From IMG/VR virus record IMGVR_UViG_3300006224_000024, positions 1 through 34,690 of that record: DNA of 34,690 nt; one strand, given 5' to 3'. This document shows, piece after piece, positions 3,135 to 20,120 of the stretch. A program made the translations under genes and the position numbers. The stretch comes from a virus. Every line of letters begins with the position of its first letter. Positions within the stretch are counted from its first letter, which is position 1. Under the pieces are notes generated by a model. It ran no database searches, was not told where the DNA came from, and saw only the letters and a program-made list of their open reading frames with translations.

Positions 3135-3294
3135 GGCGAGAACGAAGCGTGCGCGGCTGGTGGAGGTCTTGCGTCGGGAGCCGGAACTGACGAGCACGGA
3201 GCTGGCGGAGCGGCTCGGCGTCTCACTCAAGGCCGCTCAGGCCTGGGCGGCGCCGATTCGGGCGGCCATGAGAAGCGCGAAGGTCACGCCATGA
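3121..3294 (+). CDS. Mini helix-turn-helix protein (57 aa)
   Basis: Starts at GTG 3121. It is essentially a single HTH unit: KRARLVEVLRREPELTSTEL followed by AERLGVSLKAAQAWAAPI, the spacing expected for a helix-turn-recognition helix of DeoR/winged-helix type, with a basic tail. It may bind DNA as a dimer. ATGA overlap with the XF1762-like gene. Confidence 0.6.
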   Translation: MTRSEARTKRARLVEVLRREPELTSTELAERLGVSLKAAQAWAAPIRAAMRSAKVTP

Positions 3295-3791
3295 AACTCC
3301 GACTGCGCCCGTGGACGGTGAAGCGCTCGGATGCACTCGAGTTTGTCCGCCGAGTGCATCGCCGGCTGCCTCGCGTACAGGGTGTGATGTGGGCTATCTC
3401 CGTGCGAAGCGGGACCGAGATCGTCGGCGTCGCGCTTGTCGGCTGGCCGTCGAGGTTGCAGACCAGCGACGAGATGGATCATCTTCGCGTCCTCCGGATG
3501 GCCGTGAAAGAGGGCTACCCCAACGCCTGCTCGATGCTGTACGGCGCGTGCTGGCGAGCGGCTCGGGCAATGGGTTGCGACAGCATGGACACCTTCACGC
3601 ACGCCGACGAACCCGGCACGAGCTTGCGGGCCGCCGGCTGGGTAGAGGACGGATGGACTCGCGGAGGTGAGCACACCAGGGCAGGCCGGCCGCGCCCCCT
3701 CCAGGTGGATGCCTTCCCGAAGCGGCGCTGGTGGGCGCCCGGCTCGGTCAAGGCGCCCAGGGCGCTTGACGGCCGAGCGGGCAAGCGGTAG
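3291..3791 (+). CDS. XF1762-family phage protein, acetyltransferase-like
   Basis: Matches a family of about 150-170 aa found in phage early regions and named after Xylella XF1762. Recognisable parts: an N-terminal AxxFVRRVHRRLPRVQG element, IVGVALVGWPSRL near 43-55, HLRVLRMAVKEGYPNACSML near 64-83, ARAMGCDSMDTFTHADEPG, SLRAAGW, and a C-terminal KRRWWAP. The order (cofactor-like strand, GNAT-like helix, TSLRAAGW) resembles a reduced GNAT fold, but acetyltransferase activity is unproven. Last gene before a 127-base gap with hairpins. Confidence 0.8.
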   Translation: MKLRLRPWTVKRSDALEFVRRVHRRLPRVQGVMWAISVRSGTEIVGVALVGWPSRLQTSDEMDHLRVLRMAVKEGYPNACSMLYGACWRAARAMGCDSMDTFTHADEPGTSLRAAGWVEDGWTRGGEHTRAGRPRPLQVDAFPKRRWWAPGSVKAPRALDGRAGKR

Positions 3792-3918: not shown

Positions 3919-4419
3919 ATGCTCGTGGACGAGATGACGAAAGTGGTAGGCCTCACCCCATACGGAAACTGCCCGGTCCAGGCGGAAGGCACCGTGAACG
4001 GCAATCCGGCGTACTTCCGTGCTCGCGGGGACGGGTGGAGTTTCGCCGTGTCCCTTCCCGGCGTGGATCCGGTGAACATCAACGCGGCCACGGATGCCGG
4101 CGCCGTCTACTACCGGGAGGGGAATTGGGGCGCGTGGCCCGACGCCGGGTGGATGGCCGAGATCGAGGCCGCCGCCATCATCACCGACTGCGTCGCGGAG
4201 ATGGGCGGCGTGCCTTGGCCACGACGTCACGCCGGCCGTGTTGAACTGGCTCTGCGCGGCCTGCCAAACGTCGTTCTGGGGTGGTTTGGGCGCGTGCCCC
4301 GCTGGTGCCGCCCGGTGGCGTGGCTGCTGTTCAAGGCGTGGCGCTTTGCCGCGTGGCTCGTCGGCCCGGCCGTTCGGGAGCTGGCGCTGCGCCGGGGCGC
4401 CGGCAGCGGGGAGGGGTGA
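3919..4419 (+). CDS. Hypothetical protein with hydrophobic C-terminus (166 aa)
   Basis: Start ATG 3919 (GAGG seven bases upstream; ATG 3934 is an alternative). Residues 6-95 are a soluble mixed domain (GLTPYGNCPVQAEGTVNGN, WSFAVSLPGVDPVNINAATD). The last 60 residues are Trp/Arg/Leu rich with a hydrophobic stretch (WLLFKAWRFAAWLVGPAV) that could lie along a membrane. TGATG overlap with the PP-loop gene. Around 4210-4340 another frame (from GTG 4238) also has coding-like composition and a CxxC pattern, so the C-terminal half may be misread here. Confidence 0.55.
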   Translation: MLVDEMTKVVGLTPYGNCPVQAEGTVNGNPAYFRARGDGWSFAVSLPGVDPVNINAATDAGAVYYREGNWGAWPDAGWMAEIEAAAIITDCVAEMGGVPWPRRHAGRVELALRGLPNVVLGWFGRVPRWCRPVAWLLFKAWRFAAWLVGPAVRELALRRGAGSGEG

Positions 4420-5456
4420 TGGAGGGGAGCATTCGACGTGCGTTGGCTGGGCAGCGAGTTGTGGCGTCGGTGTCCGGCGGCAAGGACAGCGCCGCCCTGA
4501 GCCTCTGGCTGACCGAGCAGGGCATCGAGCACGATAGGGTGTTCTTGGATACCGACTGGGAACGCCCCGCCACGTACGAGTACCTGAGAGGAGAGTTGAC
4601 GCGGGTCATCGGCCCCATCACGGAGGTCAAGGCGCCCAAGGGCATGGCGGACCTGATCCGGAGCAAGGCTATGTTTCCGTCTCGGCTCATCAGGTTTTGT
4701 ACGCAGTCGTTGAAGATAGAGCCGATGATTGACCATCTTGTTAATGGATGGGGCTCACACGCTTGCCAGCAGTGCGGCGCCCTGGGGAGCAAGGAGGATA
4801 TCGAGGACGAGTGTGAATGCGGGGGTGATTTCGCGCCCAGGCCGACCGTCAACGCGGTTGGAATTCGCCACCAAGAAAGCGCGGCGCGAGCAGGGCTCCC
4901 TGAATGGGAGTATACCGAGGACTTTCCGGTGCCTATCTGGCGTCCTTTGGTGCGGTGGACCGAGGCCGAGGTGGTCGCAATTCATAAGCGACACGGGCTT
5001 AAGCCCAACCCGTTGTATTTACTCGGTGCTTCGCGGGTCGGGTGCTGGCCCTGCATCTACGCGCGCAAGTCGGAAATCCGCCTACTTACTGAGGTGGACC
5101 CCAGCCGAGTCGAGGTGATCCGCGCGTTGGAGGCGGAGATCGCGAGACCCGCGCAGGAGCGGTACGAGCGCGATCGGGCGGCGTGGCTTGCTGATCCGCC
5201 ACCGAAACCAGAGGACGAGTGGGGTGCCACAAAGTGGGAGCACAAGCGACGCCGACTTGAGGCGCCGTTTAGCCCTCCAGCTTGGTTCCAGAGCCAAGCC
5301 CCCGATCGGGCCGGCCACTACCGCATGCTGCCGATCGACGAGGTGGTGAGGTGGGCGCGCACCTCGCGCGGGGGGCGACAGTACGAGATGTTCGGCCAGG
5401 ATCCGGACGCGGGCTGCATGCGCTGGGGCATGTGCGACACGGGCGGGGCTGGGTGA
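4419..5456 (+). CDS. PAPS-reductase-like PP-loop enzyme (345 aa)
   Basis: Member of the adenine-nucleotide alpha-hydrolase superfamily related to phosphoadenosine-phosphosulfate reductase. The PP-loop SGGKDS is at residues 19-24, followed by an acidic strand VFLDTDWE (41-48) and the RFCTQSLKI motif near 92-100, all typical of phage PAPS-reductase-like proteins. A four-Cys insert (C116, C119, C132, C134) looks like a zinc ribbon and RVGCWPC (206-212) gives a further Cys pair. The C-terminal 120 residues are charged. The family activates a substrate with ATP; members include DndC of DNA phosphorothioation, but no dnd or dpt partners are visible here. The substrate is therefore unknown. It lies directly before the replication genes. 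Confidence 0.8.
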   Translation: MEGSIRRALAGQRVVASVSGGKDSAALSLWLTEQGIEHDRVFLDTDWERPATYEYLRGELTRVIGPITEVKAPKGMADLIRSKAMFPSRLIRFCTQSLKIEPMIDHLVNGWGSHACQQCGALGSKEDIEDECECGGDFAPRPTVNAVGIRHQESAARAGLPEWEYTEDFPVPIWRPLVRWTEAEVVAIHKRHGLKPNPLYLLGASRVGCWPCIYARKSEIRLLTEVDPSRVEVIRALEAEIARPAQERYERDRAAWLADPPPKPEDEWGATKWEHKRRRLEAPFSPPAWFQSQAPDRAGHYRMLPIDEVVRWARTSRGGRQYEMFGQDPDAGCMRWGMCDTGGAG

Positions 5457-6436
5457 TGGGTCGCCTCCCGTGGATCCAACTCGGCGCGGCCTTCGAGCTC
5501 GCGCCTCGCCTGGAGGGCCTGCTCGGGGTGAGCTACCTCGAGGCGCTCGGCCTGCTGGCGCAGCTCGACCGTGTTGCCGTTGAGCTCGTGGACGCATCCG
5601 GGGCGCCCACGGGGCTCTTCCCGGGGGAACGGGGGGGGCGTCAGCTTGCCAGCTCTGTGCGGTGGCCGGCGGCAAAGGCCGAGGAGTTGATCCTGGCGCT
5701 GGTGGAGGTGGGCAAGGTGGAGGTGGAGGGTGAGGGGGCTGGCGTGCGCGTGCTCGGCCTGGAGTGGGCGGTCAAGGCGCTGACAGCCCAGGCTGGCGCC
5801 CGGAAGCGCGCCATCGAGTCTCTTTCGCGCAAATTGCGCGCAAGTTGCGCGCAGACCGCCGGCAAGCTGCGCGAATCTGCGGCGCTAGATCAAGATCTAG
5901 ATCAAGATCTAGAAACAACTACAACTACTGCGGGCGTGCCGCCCGCGGGGCCATCGGATTCTGCTGGCAACGGATTCCAGCGGCAAAAAGAAGGCCTTCT
6001 TTTTCCGGAGCCACTCATTGCCCCAGGAGCGGCGCTCGCGGCGAAGGCGAGCCGGCGGAAGGCGAAGGCCCCGGAAGCCCCGGAGGAGCCTAACGCGGCG
6101 CCCAGGCGCCAGCTCTCTGACGCTCTCGTCGCCGACTTCGAAGACTTGCGGCGGGCAAAGTACGCTTTTGCCGGGGCGCGTGACGGCAAGGCGCTGGACG
6201 TGCTGATCGACTTCGCAGCCGGCGAGATCGACGAGGTGCGCCGCCGCTGGCGGTGGGGGCTGAACTCGGCGCATGAGCGGGATGGGGGTCCGCCCTGGGC
6301 CGGGAGGGTGAACACGATTGCCGAGCTGGCGCTACCCGCGCGCTGGAACGCGCTGGCCGCCGCTCCGGCGACGCCACGCGGAGTAAGCTCCTACCGGACC
6401 GCGTTTGAGGGGGGTGAGGTGCCCAATGAGTTTTGA
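5456..6436 (+). CDS. Replisome organiser-like replication initiator (326 aa)
   Basis: Likely DNA-binding initiation protein. An N-terminal winged-helix-like region (residues 1-110; WIQLGAAFELAPRLEGLLGV, LLAQLDRVAVELVD) is followed by a low-complexity linker (residues 120-220, LDQDLDQDLETTTTT then Ala/Pro-rich). A C-terminal helical domain (225-326) contains ALVADFEDLRRAKYAFAGAR and VDEVRRRWRWGL-like residues. This layout, and its position immediately before a DnaC-like ATPase, matches phage replisome organisers that recruit the loader and host helicase. The DNA encoding the linker carries iteron-like and AT-rich repeats. No recognisable primase or helicase motifs. Confidence 0.6.
   Translation: MGRLPWIQLGAAFELAPRLEGLLGVSYLEALGLLAQLDRVAVELVDASGAPTGLFPGERGGRQLASSVRWPAAKAEELILALVEVGKVEVEGEGAGVRVLGLEWAVKALTAQAGARKRAIESLSRKLRASCAQTAGKLRESAALDQDLDQDLETTTTTAGVPPAGPSDSAGNGFQRQKEGLLFPEPLIAPGAALAAKASRRKAKAPEAPEEPNAAPRRQLSDALVADFEDLRRAKYAFAGARDGKALDVLIDFAAGEIDEVRRRWRWGLNSAHERDGGPPWAGRVNTIAELALPARWNALAAAPATPRGVSSYRTAFEGGEVPNEF
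5823..5935. repeat. Iteron-like repeats plus AT-rich tandem, candidate origin
   Basis: Inside the replisome-organiser gene three adjacent 11-base units occur: TTTCGCGCAAA (5823), TTGCGCGCAAG (5834) and TTGCGCGCAGA (5845), with a weak fourth and a better fifth unit in the same phase (5856, 5867). They are followed by two copies of CTAGATCAAGAT (5885-5908) plus CTAGA, then an A/T/C stretch ending about 5930 that is far less GC-rich than its surroundings. Iterons beside an AT-rich segment within the initiator gene are known from lambda O and from lactococcal phage replication genes. Confidence 0.5.
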
Positions 6437-7199
6437 GCCAACCACAAAACACGTGCCGGCCCTGGTCGCTCGGATCATAGCCAACAGCCGACTACGCGGG
6501 GAGCTGCAGGCCGAGAAGGCGGGTGAAATCGCTGCGGCGCAAAAGGCGCTGTTGGACCAGGCGGCCACGGCGAGGACGGCAAACGCTGCGCGCCACCTTG
6601 AGGCCTGCGGCGTGGACCCACTGACCCGAGCACCCTTCGCCGCCGGGCGCCGCCTGGAGGACACCCACGCGCTTGAGGGGGCTCGCGCCTGGATCCGAAA
6701 CGGCACGTACAAGTCCCGCCCGTTTCTTGTCCTTTGCACCAGCGGCGGCTACGGCGCCGGCAAGAGCGTGGCGGCGGCATACTGCCTGCTGCGGGCAACC
6801 CGGACGGCGCGCTCGCTCGCGCACGAGCTGGCAGATGAGCCGACCACCTTTGAGGAGTACGACTCCAGCAAAGGACTTTGGATCAGGGCCGCGAGCGTGC
6901 GGTCCAGCTCGCGCTTTCTTCCGGGCCGGGAAGTGCCGCTGATGGACCTTGCGGCCACTGTGCGCTGGCTGGTCCTGGATGAGGTGCGCACGGCGGATGT
7001 TCAGGGGGCTGGGCAGGCGCGCATCGAGGAGTTGCTGAGCGAGCGGTACGCACGAGGTCTTCCGACCGTGATCACCTCGAACCTGGGGCAGGATGATTTG
7101 AGCCGGTGTCTTGGACCGCGGCTGGCCAGCAGAATTCACGAAGGCGGGGTTATCGTGGACCCCGGGCAGGTAGACTTGCGAAGGAGGGAGCAAAAATGA
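6426..7199 (+). CDS. DnaC-like AAA+ helicase loader (257 aa)
   Basis: AAA+ ATPase of the DnaC/IstB type that loads the replicative helicase. Walker A GGYGAGKS (107-114), Walker B WLVLDEV (181-187), sensor-1 TVITSNL (214-220) and a candidate arginine finger RLASRI (232-237) are present in the expected order. The N-terminal 90 residues form a helical partner-binding domain. Start ATG 6426 has GAGGTG upstream and overlaps the initiator gene. In this context it should act with the protein at 5456 and the host helicase. Length fits the family. Confidence 0.85.
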   Translation: MSFEPTTKHVPALVARIIANSRLRGELQAEKAGEIAAAQKALLDQAATARTANAARHLEACGVDPLTRAPFAAGRRLEDTHALEGARAWIRNGTYKSRPFLVLCTSGGYGAGKSVAAAYCLLRATRTARSLAHELADEPTTFEEYDSSKGLWIRAASVRSSSRFLPGREVPLMDLAATVRWLVLDEVRTADVQGAGQARIEELLSERYARGLPTVITSNLGQDDLSRCLGPRLASRIHEGGVIVDPGQVDLRRREQK

Positions 7200-7945
7200 A
7201 CCCACAGGGAGCCGTTACGCGGTTGTACGATAGAGCAAAAGCTTTCGCGATAGACGAAGACGCGGGACCAGATGCCGCCGACCTGGCAGCCGCTTTTGGT
7301 GATCTTGGATTCGCGGCGCAAGGGGACACTGCGCGGACGCTACTGGGGCAGCTCGATGTCGTAGCCTCGTGGTCCCCGGACAGGCGAGCGCTGATCGCCC
7401 AACTCGACGCAGCGAGACCGGAGGCGTGGGCGCTTCTCCCGGACGTGCTCTGGGGGCTTGCCGACAAGGGCATGCCCGCGATGGTCGAGAGCATCGTGGT
7501 CGCGCCGGACGAGCAGAAGCTGGGCGCACGGCTGGCAGCCTGGGCCGGGGGATTCAGCGAGGTGCAAGCTCGCCTCCTGCTCGTGGCACTAAGGGACGGG
7601 ATCCGAGCGGCAAGCGCCAGAAGGGACGACTTCGCCGCGGCGCAGCTCGACGTACGGCGCAAGGAACTTGAGGCGGCCATCACGGGCGAGAATGGATACC
7701 ATGAATCCACCGCGTGCGATAGGCATGACTGCGCGAGCTGCCAGTACAACGGAGGCTGCGAGCCCTTTGCGGTGCCGGAAGCGCAGACCCGTCGGCTCGC
7801 GCGAGTAGCCGCGCTCGGGGAGGACAACGCCGCCTTGCTTGACAGCGTGCTTGATGAACTGGAGGGTAAGACGCTGCCTCCGACGCTGCCTCCGAGATCC
7901 GACCCGGCCGCGCTCGCGAGAAGGGAGTCGGGCGATGGCCGGTGA
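7196..7945 (+). CDS. Hypothetical protein with Cys cluster (249 aa)
   Basis: Unknown protein translationally coupled to the helicase loader (ATGA). Mostly helical; residues 1-160 hold repeated Asp/Ala-rich helices (DAADLAAAFGDLGFAAQGD). A Cys/His cluster CDRHDCASCQYNGGC lies near residues 178-192 and could bind zinc or an iron-sulfur cluster. The C-terminus has a Pro-Thr linker (LPPTLPPRSDP). Position suggests a replication accessory role, but no motif supports a specific activity. Confidence 0.6.
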   Translation: MNPQGAVTRLYDRAKAFAIDEDAGPDAADLAAAFGDLGFAAQGDTARTLLGQLDVVASWSPDRRALIAQLDAARPEAWALLPDVLWGLADKGMPAMVESIVVAPDEQKLGARLAAWAGGFSEVQARLLLVALRDGIRAASARRDDFAAAQLDVRRKELEAAITGENGYHESTACDRHDCASCQYNGGCEPFAVPEAQTRRLARVAALGEDNAALLDSVLDELEGKTLPPTLPPRSDPAALARRESGDGR

Positions 7946-13141: not shown

Positions 13142-13156
13142 CGTGTCCTCCTTGTC

Positions 13157-13201
13157 CTGCGTTGGTGGACGAAAGGTAGCGAGTGTCGCGACCTTTGTCA
13201 A
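13157..13201 (-). promoter_or_regulatory. Repeated promoter cassette, copy 1
   Basis: Minus strand: TTGACA (13201-13196), 17-base spacer containing the palindrome GTCGCGAC, TACCTT (13178-13173), then a start-site-proximal CACCAACGCAG. The same 45-base block recurs at 14562-14606 (40 of 45 identical) and 16359-16403 (41 of 45). Immediately upstream lies a C9 run (13202-13210) that touches the -35. Confidence 0.7.
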
Positions 13202-13257
13202 GGGGGGGGGCAGAAGAAAGTGGAAATCCGCGTGGTTAAGCGGGGTTAGGAGGATGG

Positions 13258-16341: not shown

Positions 16342-16358
16342 TTTGCTCTCCTGGTGTG

Positions 16359-16403
16359 CTGCGTTGGTGAGGTAAAGGTAGCGAGTGTCGCGACCTTTGT
16401 CAA
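16359..16403 (-). promoter_or_regulatory. Repeated promoter cassette, copy 3
   Basis: Minus strand: TTGACA (16403-16398), 17-base spacer identical to copy 1 including GTCGCGAC, TACCTT (16380-16375), and CACCAACGCAG. The TGA inside TTGACA ends the gene at 16400. The block 5' of the -35 matches copy 2. Confidence 0.7.
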
Positions 16404-16702
16404 GATGCGATCGAGGTTTTAAGGGCCTCGGCTCGGAGGACTTCGCCGTCCATGACGGTGCACCACATTTGCCGGTAGGCAGTTTGGTAGACGTGGTTGG
16501 CAGTCCCTCGGGTGAGCGGCGGGCAGTCCGGGTAGGCCGCTGCCTCAAGCTGCCAGTCGCCAGCGACGAAGCGCACCCTCAAGCCGTAGGTGAGCTCGCG
16601 CTGCGCCTTCGTGCGCGTGGCCCAAGCGCAGTAGCGCAGGACGAATTCGAAGCGGTCGAGCGTCCGCGCCAGGGTGGGGATGTCAAGGGCTGCTGGGGTT
16701 AT
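16400..16702 (-). CDS. Hypothetical protein, start unclear (about 100 aa)
   Basis: The frame from 16702 to the stop at 16400 has convincing coding character: ALDIPTLARTLDRFEFVLRY, KAQRELTYGLRVRFVAGDWQ, TANHVYQTAYRQMWCTVMDG. No ATG or GTG lies between the end of the upstream gene (16708) and the protein-like start; the ATA at 16702 behind AAAGG is one option, so the 5' end is approximate. Function unknown. Ends in KTSIAS on the shared TGA of the promoter. Confidence 0.55.
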   Translation of the reverse strand: MTPAALDIPTLARTLDRFEFVLRYCAWATRTKAQRELTYGLRVRFVAGDWQLEAAAYPDCPPLTRGTANHVYQTAYRQMWCTVMDGEVLRAEALKTSIAS

Positions 16703-19634: not shown

Positions 19635-20120
19635 GTGCGGCTCGTGAGCTGCCGCCCCGATGGCCTCCCGCGGGCCACCTGCGCCAGCGAGGTGCAGCCT
19701 GAGCCCACGCCTGGCGCCGCCGGCCCCCCGCCCCATGATCCCCCCACCCCGGGGCAGGTGGAACAAGTACCCGTGCACGGGCAGCAAGCCCCGTCATCCC
19801 CTCTCCTCAACCCCTCGGTCTTCGGGGCCTCGCCCGCCGAAGCTACGACGCCATGCTCAGGCTGCGGCTGGGAGTACCTCGTGCTTGACCAACCGGCCGC
19901 ACCCCGACCGTCCGCGCACGAGGCGCTTCAGCGGGGCTTGCCGGTGTGGGCGGCGCTCTACGCGACGACTTTCGAGCGCAGCCGGGATCATGCAACGGCG
20001 GACCAGGAGGCCTGGCGTGGCTACCTGAAGCTGTGCGAACTGGCCCTCAAGCACGCCAGCCGACCGTGCGGCCCTGTGCAGCCCAGCCCCTTCGTCCATC
20101 TCGTCGCGGGGCCGCCATGA
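19635..20120 (+). CDS. Hypothetical protein (161 aa)
   Basis: Unknown. Start is uncertain: GTG 19635 or GTG 19644, neither with a strong RBS. The N-terminal 70 residues are Pro-rich and disordered. The C-terminal half looks folded: CSGCGWEYLVLDQPAAP, EALQRGLPVWAALYATTFER, TADQEAWRGYLKLCELALKH. Confidence 0.55.
   Translation: MRLVSCRPDGLPRATCASEVQPEPTPGAAGPPPHDPPTPGQVEQVPVHGQQAPSSPLLNPSVFGASPAEATTPCSGCGWEYLVLDQPAAPRPSAHEALQRGLPVWAALYATTFERSRDHATADQEAWRGYLKLCELALKHASRPCGPVQPSPFVHLVAGPP

Follow-up and report, generated by a model that had tools for sequence, protein, structure and literature searches.

A candidate lambda-like replication origin within the initiator gene of an uncultured GC-rich phage

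Where does a GC-rich, uncultured phage whose initiator is almost an orphan begin to copy its DNA? The question is raised by the window, the whole 34,690-nucleotide stretch analyzed here (positions 1 to 34,690 of IMG/VR record IMGVR_UViG_3300006224_000024), in which an earlier note had placed a possible origin at 5823 to 5935. A second record of 54,628 nucleotides, IMGVR_UViG_3300009111_000007 (G001), spans the whole window at its positions 19936 to 54625 with one mismatch. This 54.6-kb contig of the same phage was used as the reference for genome-scale ranks because it holds the window plus more of the phage, and it may itself be incomplete. As the stretch of interest lies in coding DNA, the null model consisted of shuffles that preserve the protein and its codon usage. 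The features on which the argument depends are as follows (window coordinates).

5456 to 6436, plus strand: initiator-like gene of 326 amino acids, an assignment based on the C-terminal domain and on gene order; its linker coding region holds the candidate origin
5823 to 5833, plus strand: iteron-like unit 1, TTTCGCGCAAA, matching the consensus TTGCGCGCAAG at 9 of 11 positions
5834 to 5844, plus strand: iteron-like unit 2, TTGCGCGCAAG, identical to the consensus and holding the perfect palindrome TTGCGCGCAA
5845 to 5855, plus strand: iteron-like unit 3, TTGCGCGCAGA, matching the consensus at 9 of 11 positions
5856 to 5877, plus strand: two weaker in-phase units of the earlier note (starting at 5856 and 5867), each matching the consensus at 7 of 11 positions
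5885 to 5912, plus strand: 12-nucleotide array, CTAGATCAAGAT CTAGATCAAGAT CTAG (lag-12 P of about 0.01), with four GATC sites 6 bp apart
5885 to 5929, plus strand: AT-rich run, the proposed strand-opening element, notable for its duplex instability, AT content, and codon endings
5985 to 6004, no strand assigned: perfect 20-bp palindrome, AAAAAGAAGGCCTTCTTTTT (P = 0.016 against protein-preserving shuffles), a possible further origin element
6426 to 7199, plus strand: DnaC-like helicase loader gene (phrog_50, E = 7.8e-16), directly downstream of the initiator-like gene and overlapping it

Three things make the gene at 5456 to 6436 the probable initiator gene: its C-terminal domain, its place in the gene order, and the loader that follows it. 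Residues 209 to 306 are 36% identical over 98 amino acids to p19 of phage Mx8, which is annotated as a "replication initiation protein," and the C-terminal domain was recovered again in a search of the Mx8 record (E = 4.2e-8). The sole match of the protein to PHROGs at an E value of <1 was phrog_8130 (E = 1.2e-5), a group of unknown function. No O-like initiator model in PHROGs matched it, and by this test the protein is not a member of the lambda O family. The N-terminal domain, which presumably binds DNA, matched no family, and its comparison to two of the initiator families surveyed below was not significant (families A and B; P = 0.36 for the profile comparison with family A). Searches of phages, plasmids, and viral contigs yielded no close relative of the initiator, a scan of genome contigs with the loader alignment gave one weak match only, and a single-sequence fold of the initiator had a mean pLDDT of 43.5, too poor for a structure search. 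The loader is 34% identical to Mx8 p20 over the alignment. As the earlier note had placed them, the repeats lie in the linker of the initiator-like gene, upstream of the loader. Other genes were recorded in the same neighborhood. A phosphoadenosine phosphosulfate reductase-like gene (4281 to 5456, plus strand; PF01507, E = 3.3e-20) has a stop codon that overlaps the initiator start, and a Mom-like DNA modification gene (3291 to 3791, plus strand; phrog_1384, E = 3.1e-20) lies near the replication genes. The longer contig carries leftward recombination genes for a PD-(D/E)XK nuclease, an SbcC-like ATPase, and RecT (L010:15227-19680, minus strand). Farther along the window, a direct repeat of ~57 nucleotides and ~90% identity occurs at 13148 to 13202 and 16348 to 16404, with ~3 kb between the copies, which may mark where an insertion or rearrangement begins and ends.

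Three adjacent 11-base iteron-like units had been described in the linker coding region, and they are present at 5823, 5834, and 5845 beyond what the protein-preserving null produces. The units (5823 to 5855) are palindromic, are spaced at 11 nucleotides, and lie out of codon phase. Under the protein-preserving null, repetition at a lag of 11 had a P value of 0.002 to 0.0045, and repetition at any non-codon lag from 7 to 30 had a P value of 0.004 to 0.006. Few short-period tandem segments in the 54.6-kb contig are as strong as the 11-mer repeat, which is tied by a 12-mer at 7870; the latter is a second exact 12-nucleotide tandem pair (GACGCTGCCTCC, 7870 to 7893), located in the gene that follows the loader gene. 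The two weaker in-phase units did not fare as well, with 32% of protein-preserving shuffles matching them (P = 0.32). Units 4 and 5 were dismissed as chance, and three iterons stand.

The doubled CTAGATCAAGAT and the AT-rich run in a GC-rich genome, also claimed previously, were both found, beginning after a gap of 31 nucleotides from the iteron units. The 12-mer is exactly doubled at 5885 to 5908, in codon phase, and as a short-period tandem the array is outscored in the 54.6-kb contig only by a GAG x8 microsatellite. Its four GATC sites lie 6 bp apart, and the contig has no denser GATC cluster; genome-wide, GATC shows no marked depletion (240 occurrences versus about 268 expected). The 6-nucleotide periodicity within the 12-mer was not significant by itself (P = 0.24, protein-preserving shuffles). 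By nearest-neighbor energies, 5885 to 5924 is the least stable 40-nucleotide duplex in the 54.6-kb contig (z = 5.0), and the segment beginning at 5885 ranks first in instability at lengths of 30, 40, and 50 nucleotides, second at 60, and outside the top five at 80. The AT-richest 30 and 40 nucleotides of the contig likewise fall within 5885 to 5929, and none of 500 protein-preserving shuffles contained a 40-nucleotide stretch equally rich in AT. All 15 codons of 5885 to 5929 have A or T at the third position in a phage that uses CTA for 3% of its Leu codons and ACA and ACT for 5% and 6%, respectively, of its Thr codons.

The palindrome at 5985 to 6004, absent from the earlier note as was the GATC cluster, lies in the same gene, 55 nucleotides downstream of the AT-rich run, and is the longest perfect palindrome in 54.6 kb. 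Such a palindrome was present in just 2 of 40 surveyed initiators and is not a general feature of them. The tandem repeat, the duplex instability, and the palindrome are three independent genome-wide or near-genome-wide extremes inside 182 bp of one linker.

This anatomy resembles that of the lambda origin. Like lambda oriL and other lambdoid origins (PMC7466680), the candidate lies inside the initiator gene. Lambda gene O contains four annotated iterons, an A-rich run, and an imperfect palindrome (L134:563-590), followed by gene P; the window shows the same order of iterons, AT-rich run, and palindrome, with the helicase-loading gene next downstream. However, the window has three iterons 11 nucleotides apart without spacers, whereas lambda has four of 18 nucleotides with spacers, and, unlike lambda, the phage is GC-rich and its initiator has no match to the O-like family. 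Mx8 shares the C-terminal initiator domain and the loader in the same gene order (p19-p20), but the N-terminal domains of p19 and the window initiator have no significant alignment. The p19 linker contains GGACGTCC repeats about 10 nucleotides apart and then GGAGAT repeats; the array had a P value of 0.020, and the 10-nucleotide repeat taken alone was not significant (P = 0.214). The open-access papers searched gave no mapped origin for Mx8. The linker of p19 (L007:3499-4680) also holds a T5orf172/MUG113 domain, as if a nuclease had inserted beside the origin, and an HNH-like domain is visible by eye in two other initiator linkers (L129 and L132) in the same manner. In the phage P1 plasmid origin oriR, GATC heptamers lie beside iterons. 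Both P1 oriR and the window thus have iterons adjoining a regularly spaced GATC cluster; the array of the window differs in having four sites at six-base spacing and in lying inside a gene.

Since the initiator is nearly an orphan, the arrangement rather than the sequence was compared across families. Three sets of initiators were assembled from viral contigs, with members of each set less than 70% identical to one another: family A, 53 initiators whose N-terminal domain resembles that of Mx8 p19; family B, 18 DUF1376-type initiators; and family C, 13 O-like ones. The gene next downstream served as the control, short arrays were defined by lags of 5 to 8, and significance was assessed at 0.05 with protein-preserving shuffles; because members of a family are related, the counts that follow are not fully independent. 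Short arrays were significant in 24 of 53 family A initiators versus 2 of 46 controls and in 16 of 18 family B initiators versus 0 of 14 controls, while just 1 of 13 family C initiators had one. For longer repeats lying out of codon phase, significance was reached in 26 of 53 family A genes (controls, 2/46) and 9 of 18 family B genes (controls, 1/14), some of these being multiples of a 7- or 8-nucleotide array; for longer repeats in family C, the figure was 11 of 13 genes (controls, 2/11). Once the short array had been masked, the longer, iteron-like repeats were most often spaced at 11 nucleotides (12/35), and these repeats lay upstream of the array in all 21 genes having both elements. The window, with its 11-nucleotide units ahead of the array, conforms to this pattern. 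Several family C members from GC-rich hosts have a 12-nucleotide AT-rich array (ACAGAGATTACT-like) with the same period as that of the window. Many family A arrays consist of 7- or 8-nucleotide units read in several frames (e.g., CCTGATT), a pattern for which selection on the protein would hardly account. A universal GAT-based motif, seen by eye in a few phages, was rejected, as a trinucleotide test did not single out GAT; arrays across the initiators use many different sequences. As both the sequences and the encoded residues differ between initiators, selection appears to act on the DNA. Initiators that keep the linker protein and lose the DNA repeats, which had been named as evidence against an origin, were not seen across the other families, in which the protein changes and the DNA arrangement stays. 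One further linker, in another phage, has almost four exact 21-nucleotide repeats (CCAGCCGTGGAAAGGTATGAC; approximately L065:3325-3402) and is a very strong iteron candidate in its own right.

The repeats, duplex instability, palindrome, and gene order described above are observed features, as is their recurrence in other families. Because three contig extremes cluster in one linker and the same order recurs in other families, we consider it probable that 5823 to 6004 is a lambda-like replication origin inside the linker coding region of the phage's own initiator gene. The arrangement of iterons beside a melting element put forward in the earlier note is therefore supported, but its extent is revised from 5823-5935 to 5823-6004. 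The cumulative GC-skew minimum falls at window position ~1142, ~4.7 kb from the candidate origin and near a divergent switch between leftward and rightward genes at ~646; as the minimum adjoins this switch, the skew mixes gene direction with any replication signal and was set aside as a guide to the origin.

It is conceivable that the iterons are instead an operator through which the initiator or another phage protein controls transcription of the replication genes, the true origin being elsewhere. Palindromic sites 11 bp apart would suit a repressor too, and the window has further weak duplex regions near 4700 and 20420. However, the sites lie ~370 nucleotides inside the gene, and an operator leaves unexplained both the adjacent melting element and the fact that other initiators repeatedly have iterons with an array downstream of them, which makes this explanation improbable. 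We likewise see little probability in the proposal that the repeats arose by slippage and persist because a neutral, low-complexity linker tolerates them. The linker looks disordered, the exact, in-phase doubling of the 12-mer is what slippage would give, and other families have dipeptide runs such as DTDTDT. Against this, the 11-nucleotide unit is out of codon phase, the codon choice throughout 5885 to 5929 is AT-ending and mostly rare, and the protein-preserving nulls are exceeded here and only rarely in control genes; in addition, the 7- and 8-nucleotide units of many family A arrays occur in several frames, where simple slippage would cause frameshifts. An internal terminator or attenuator formed by the palindrome with its T run (5985 to 6008) and GC-rich repeats is very improbable, for even though the palindrome ends in TTTTT and folding of the strand is somewhat stronger than in shuffles (z = -2.12), that excess is modest, the site is inside an open gene that overlaps the next gene, and the AT-rich run and iterons are left unexplained.

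Under the origin reading, we infer that iteron binding, melting, helicase loading, and initiation would occur at 5823 to 6004. By analogy with lambda, the initiator would bind the three 11-bp iterons in a phased complex, probably with one dimer per palindromic site; the iterons would sit on one helix face about one turn apart. Once assembled, this complex would strain and open the AT-rich run at 5885 to 5929 and may hold one exposed strand, and the DnaC-like loader, the product of the following gene, would then deliver the helicase. The palindrome at 5985 to 6004 may form a hairpin or mark the far edge. More tentatively, and with rather less than even confidence, we hypothesize that unrelated phage initiator families share a two-part linker DNA code, in which iterons spaced at approximately a helical turn are followed by a phage-specific array of 6 to 12 nucleotides for opening or single-strand binding. 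If so, residue repeats in the linkers (DTDTDT, SLIPDSLIPDS, and DQDLDQDL) would be by-products of selection on the DNA. Within such a code, methylation could influence opening in this phage through its GATC-rich array; this role, likened to that at P1 oriR, is a guess.

These results place a testable candidate origin in an uncultured GC-rich phage, and they suggest that origins inside initiator genes may be detectable wherever the DNA repeats exceed what the protein needs. An origin inside an initiator gene is of a known kind, but it may be a new observation that short arrays recur across families; no description of the iterons-then-array arrangement in several initiator families was found in the open-access papers searched. 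DnaA-trios gave bacterial origins a comparable anatomy. If the short array is a general opening element, then unrelated phage initiator families would have a comparable origin anatomy as well, and the odd residue repeats of their linkers would be explained.
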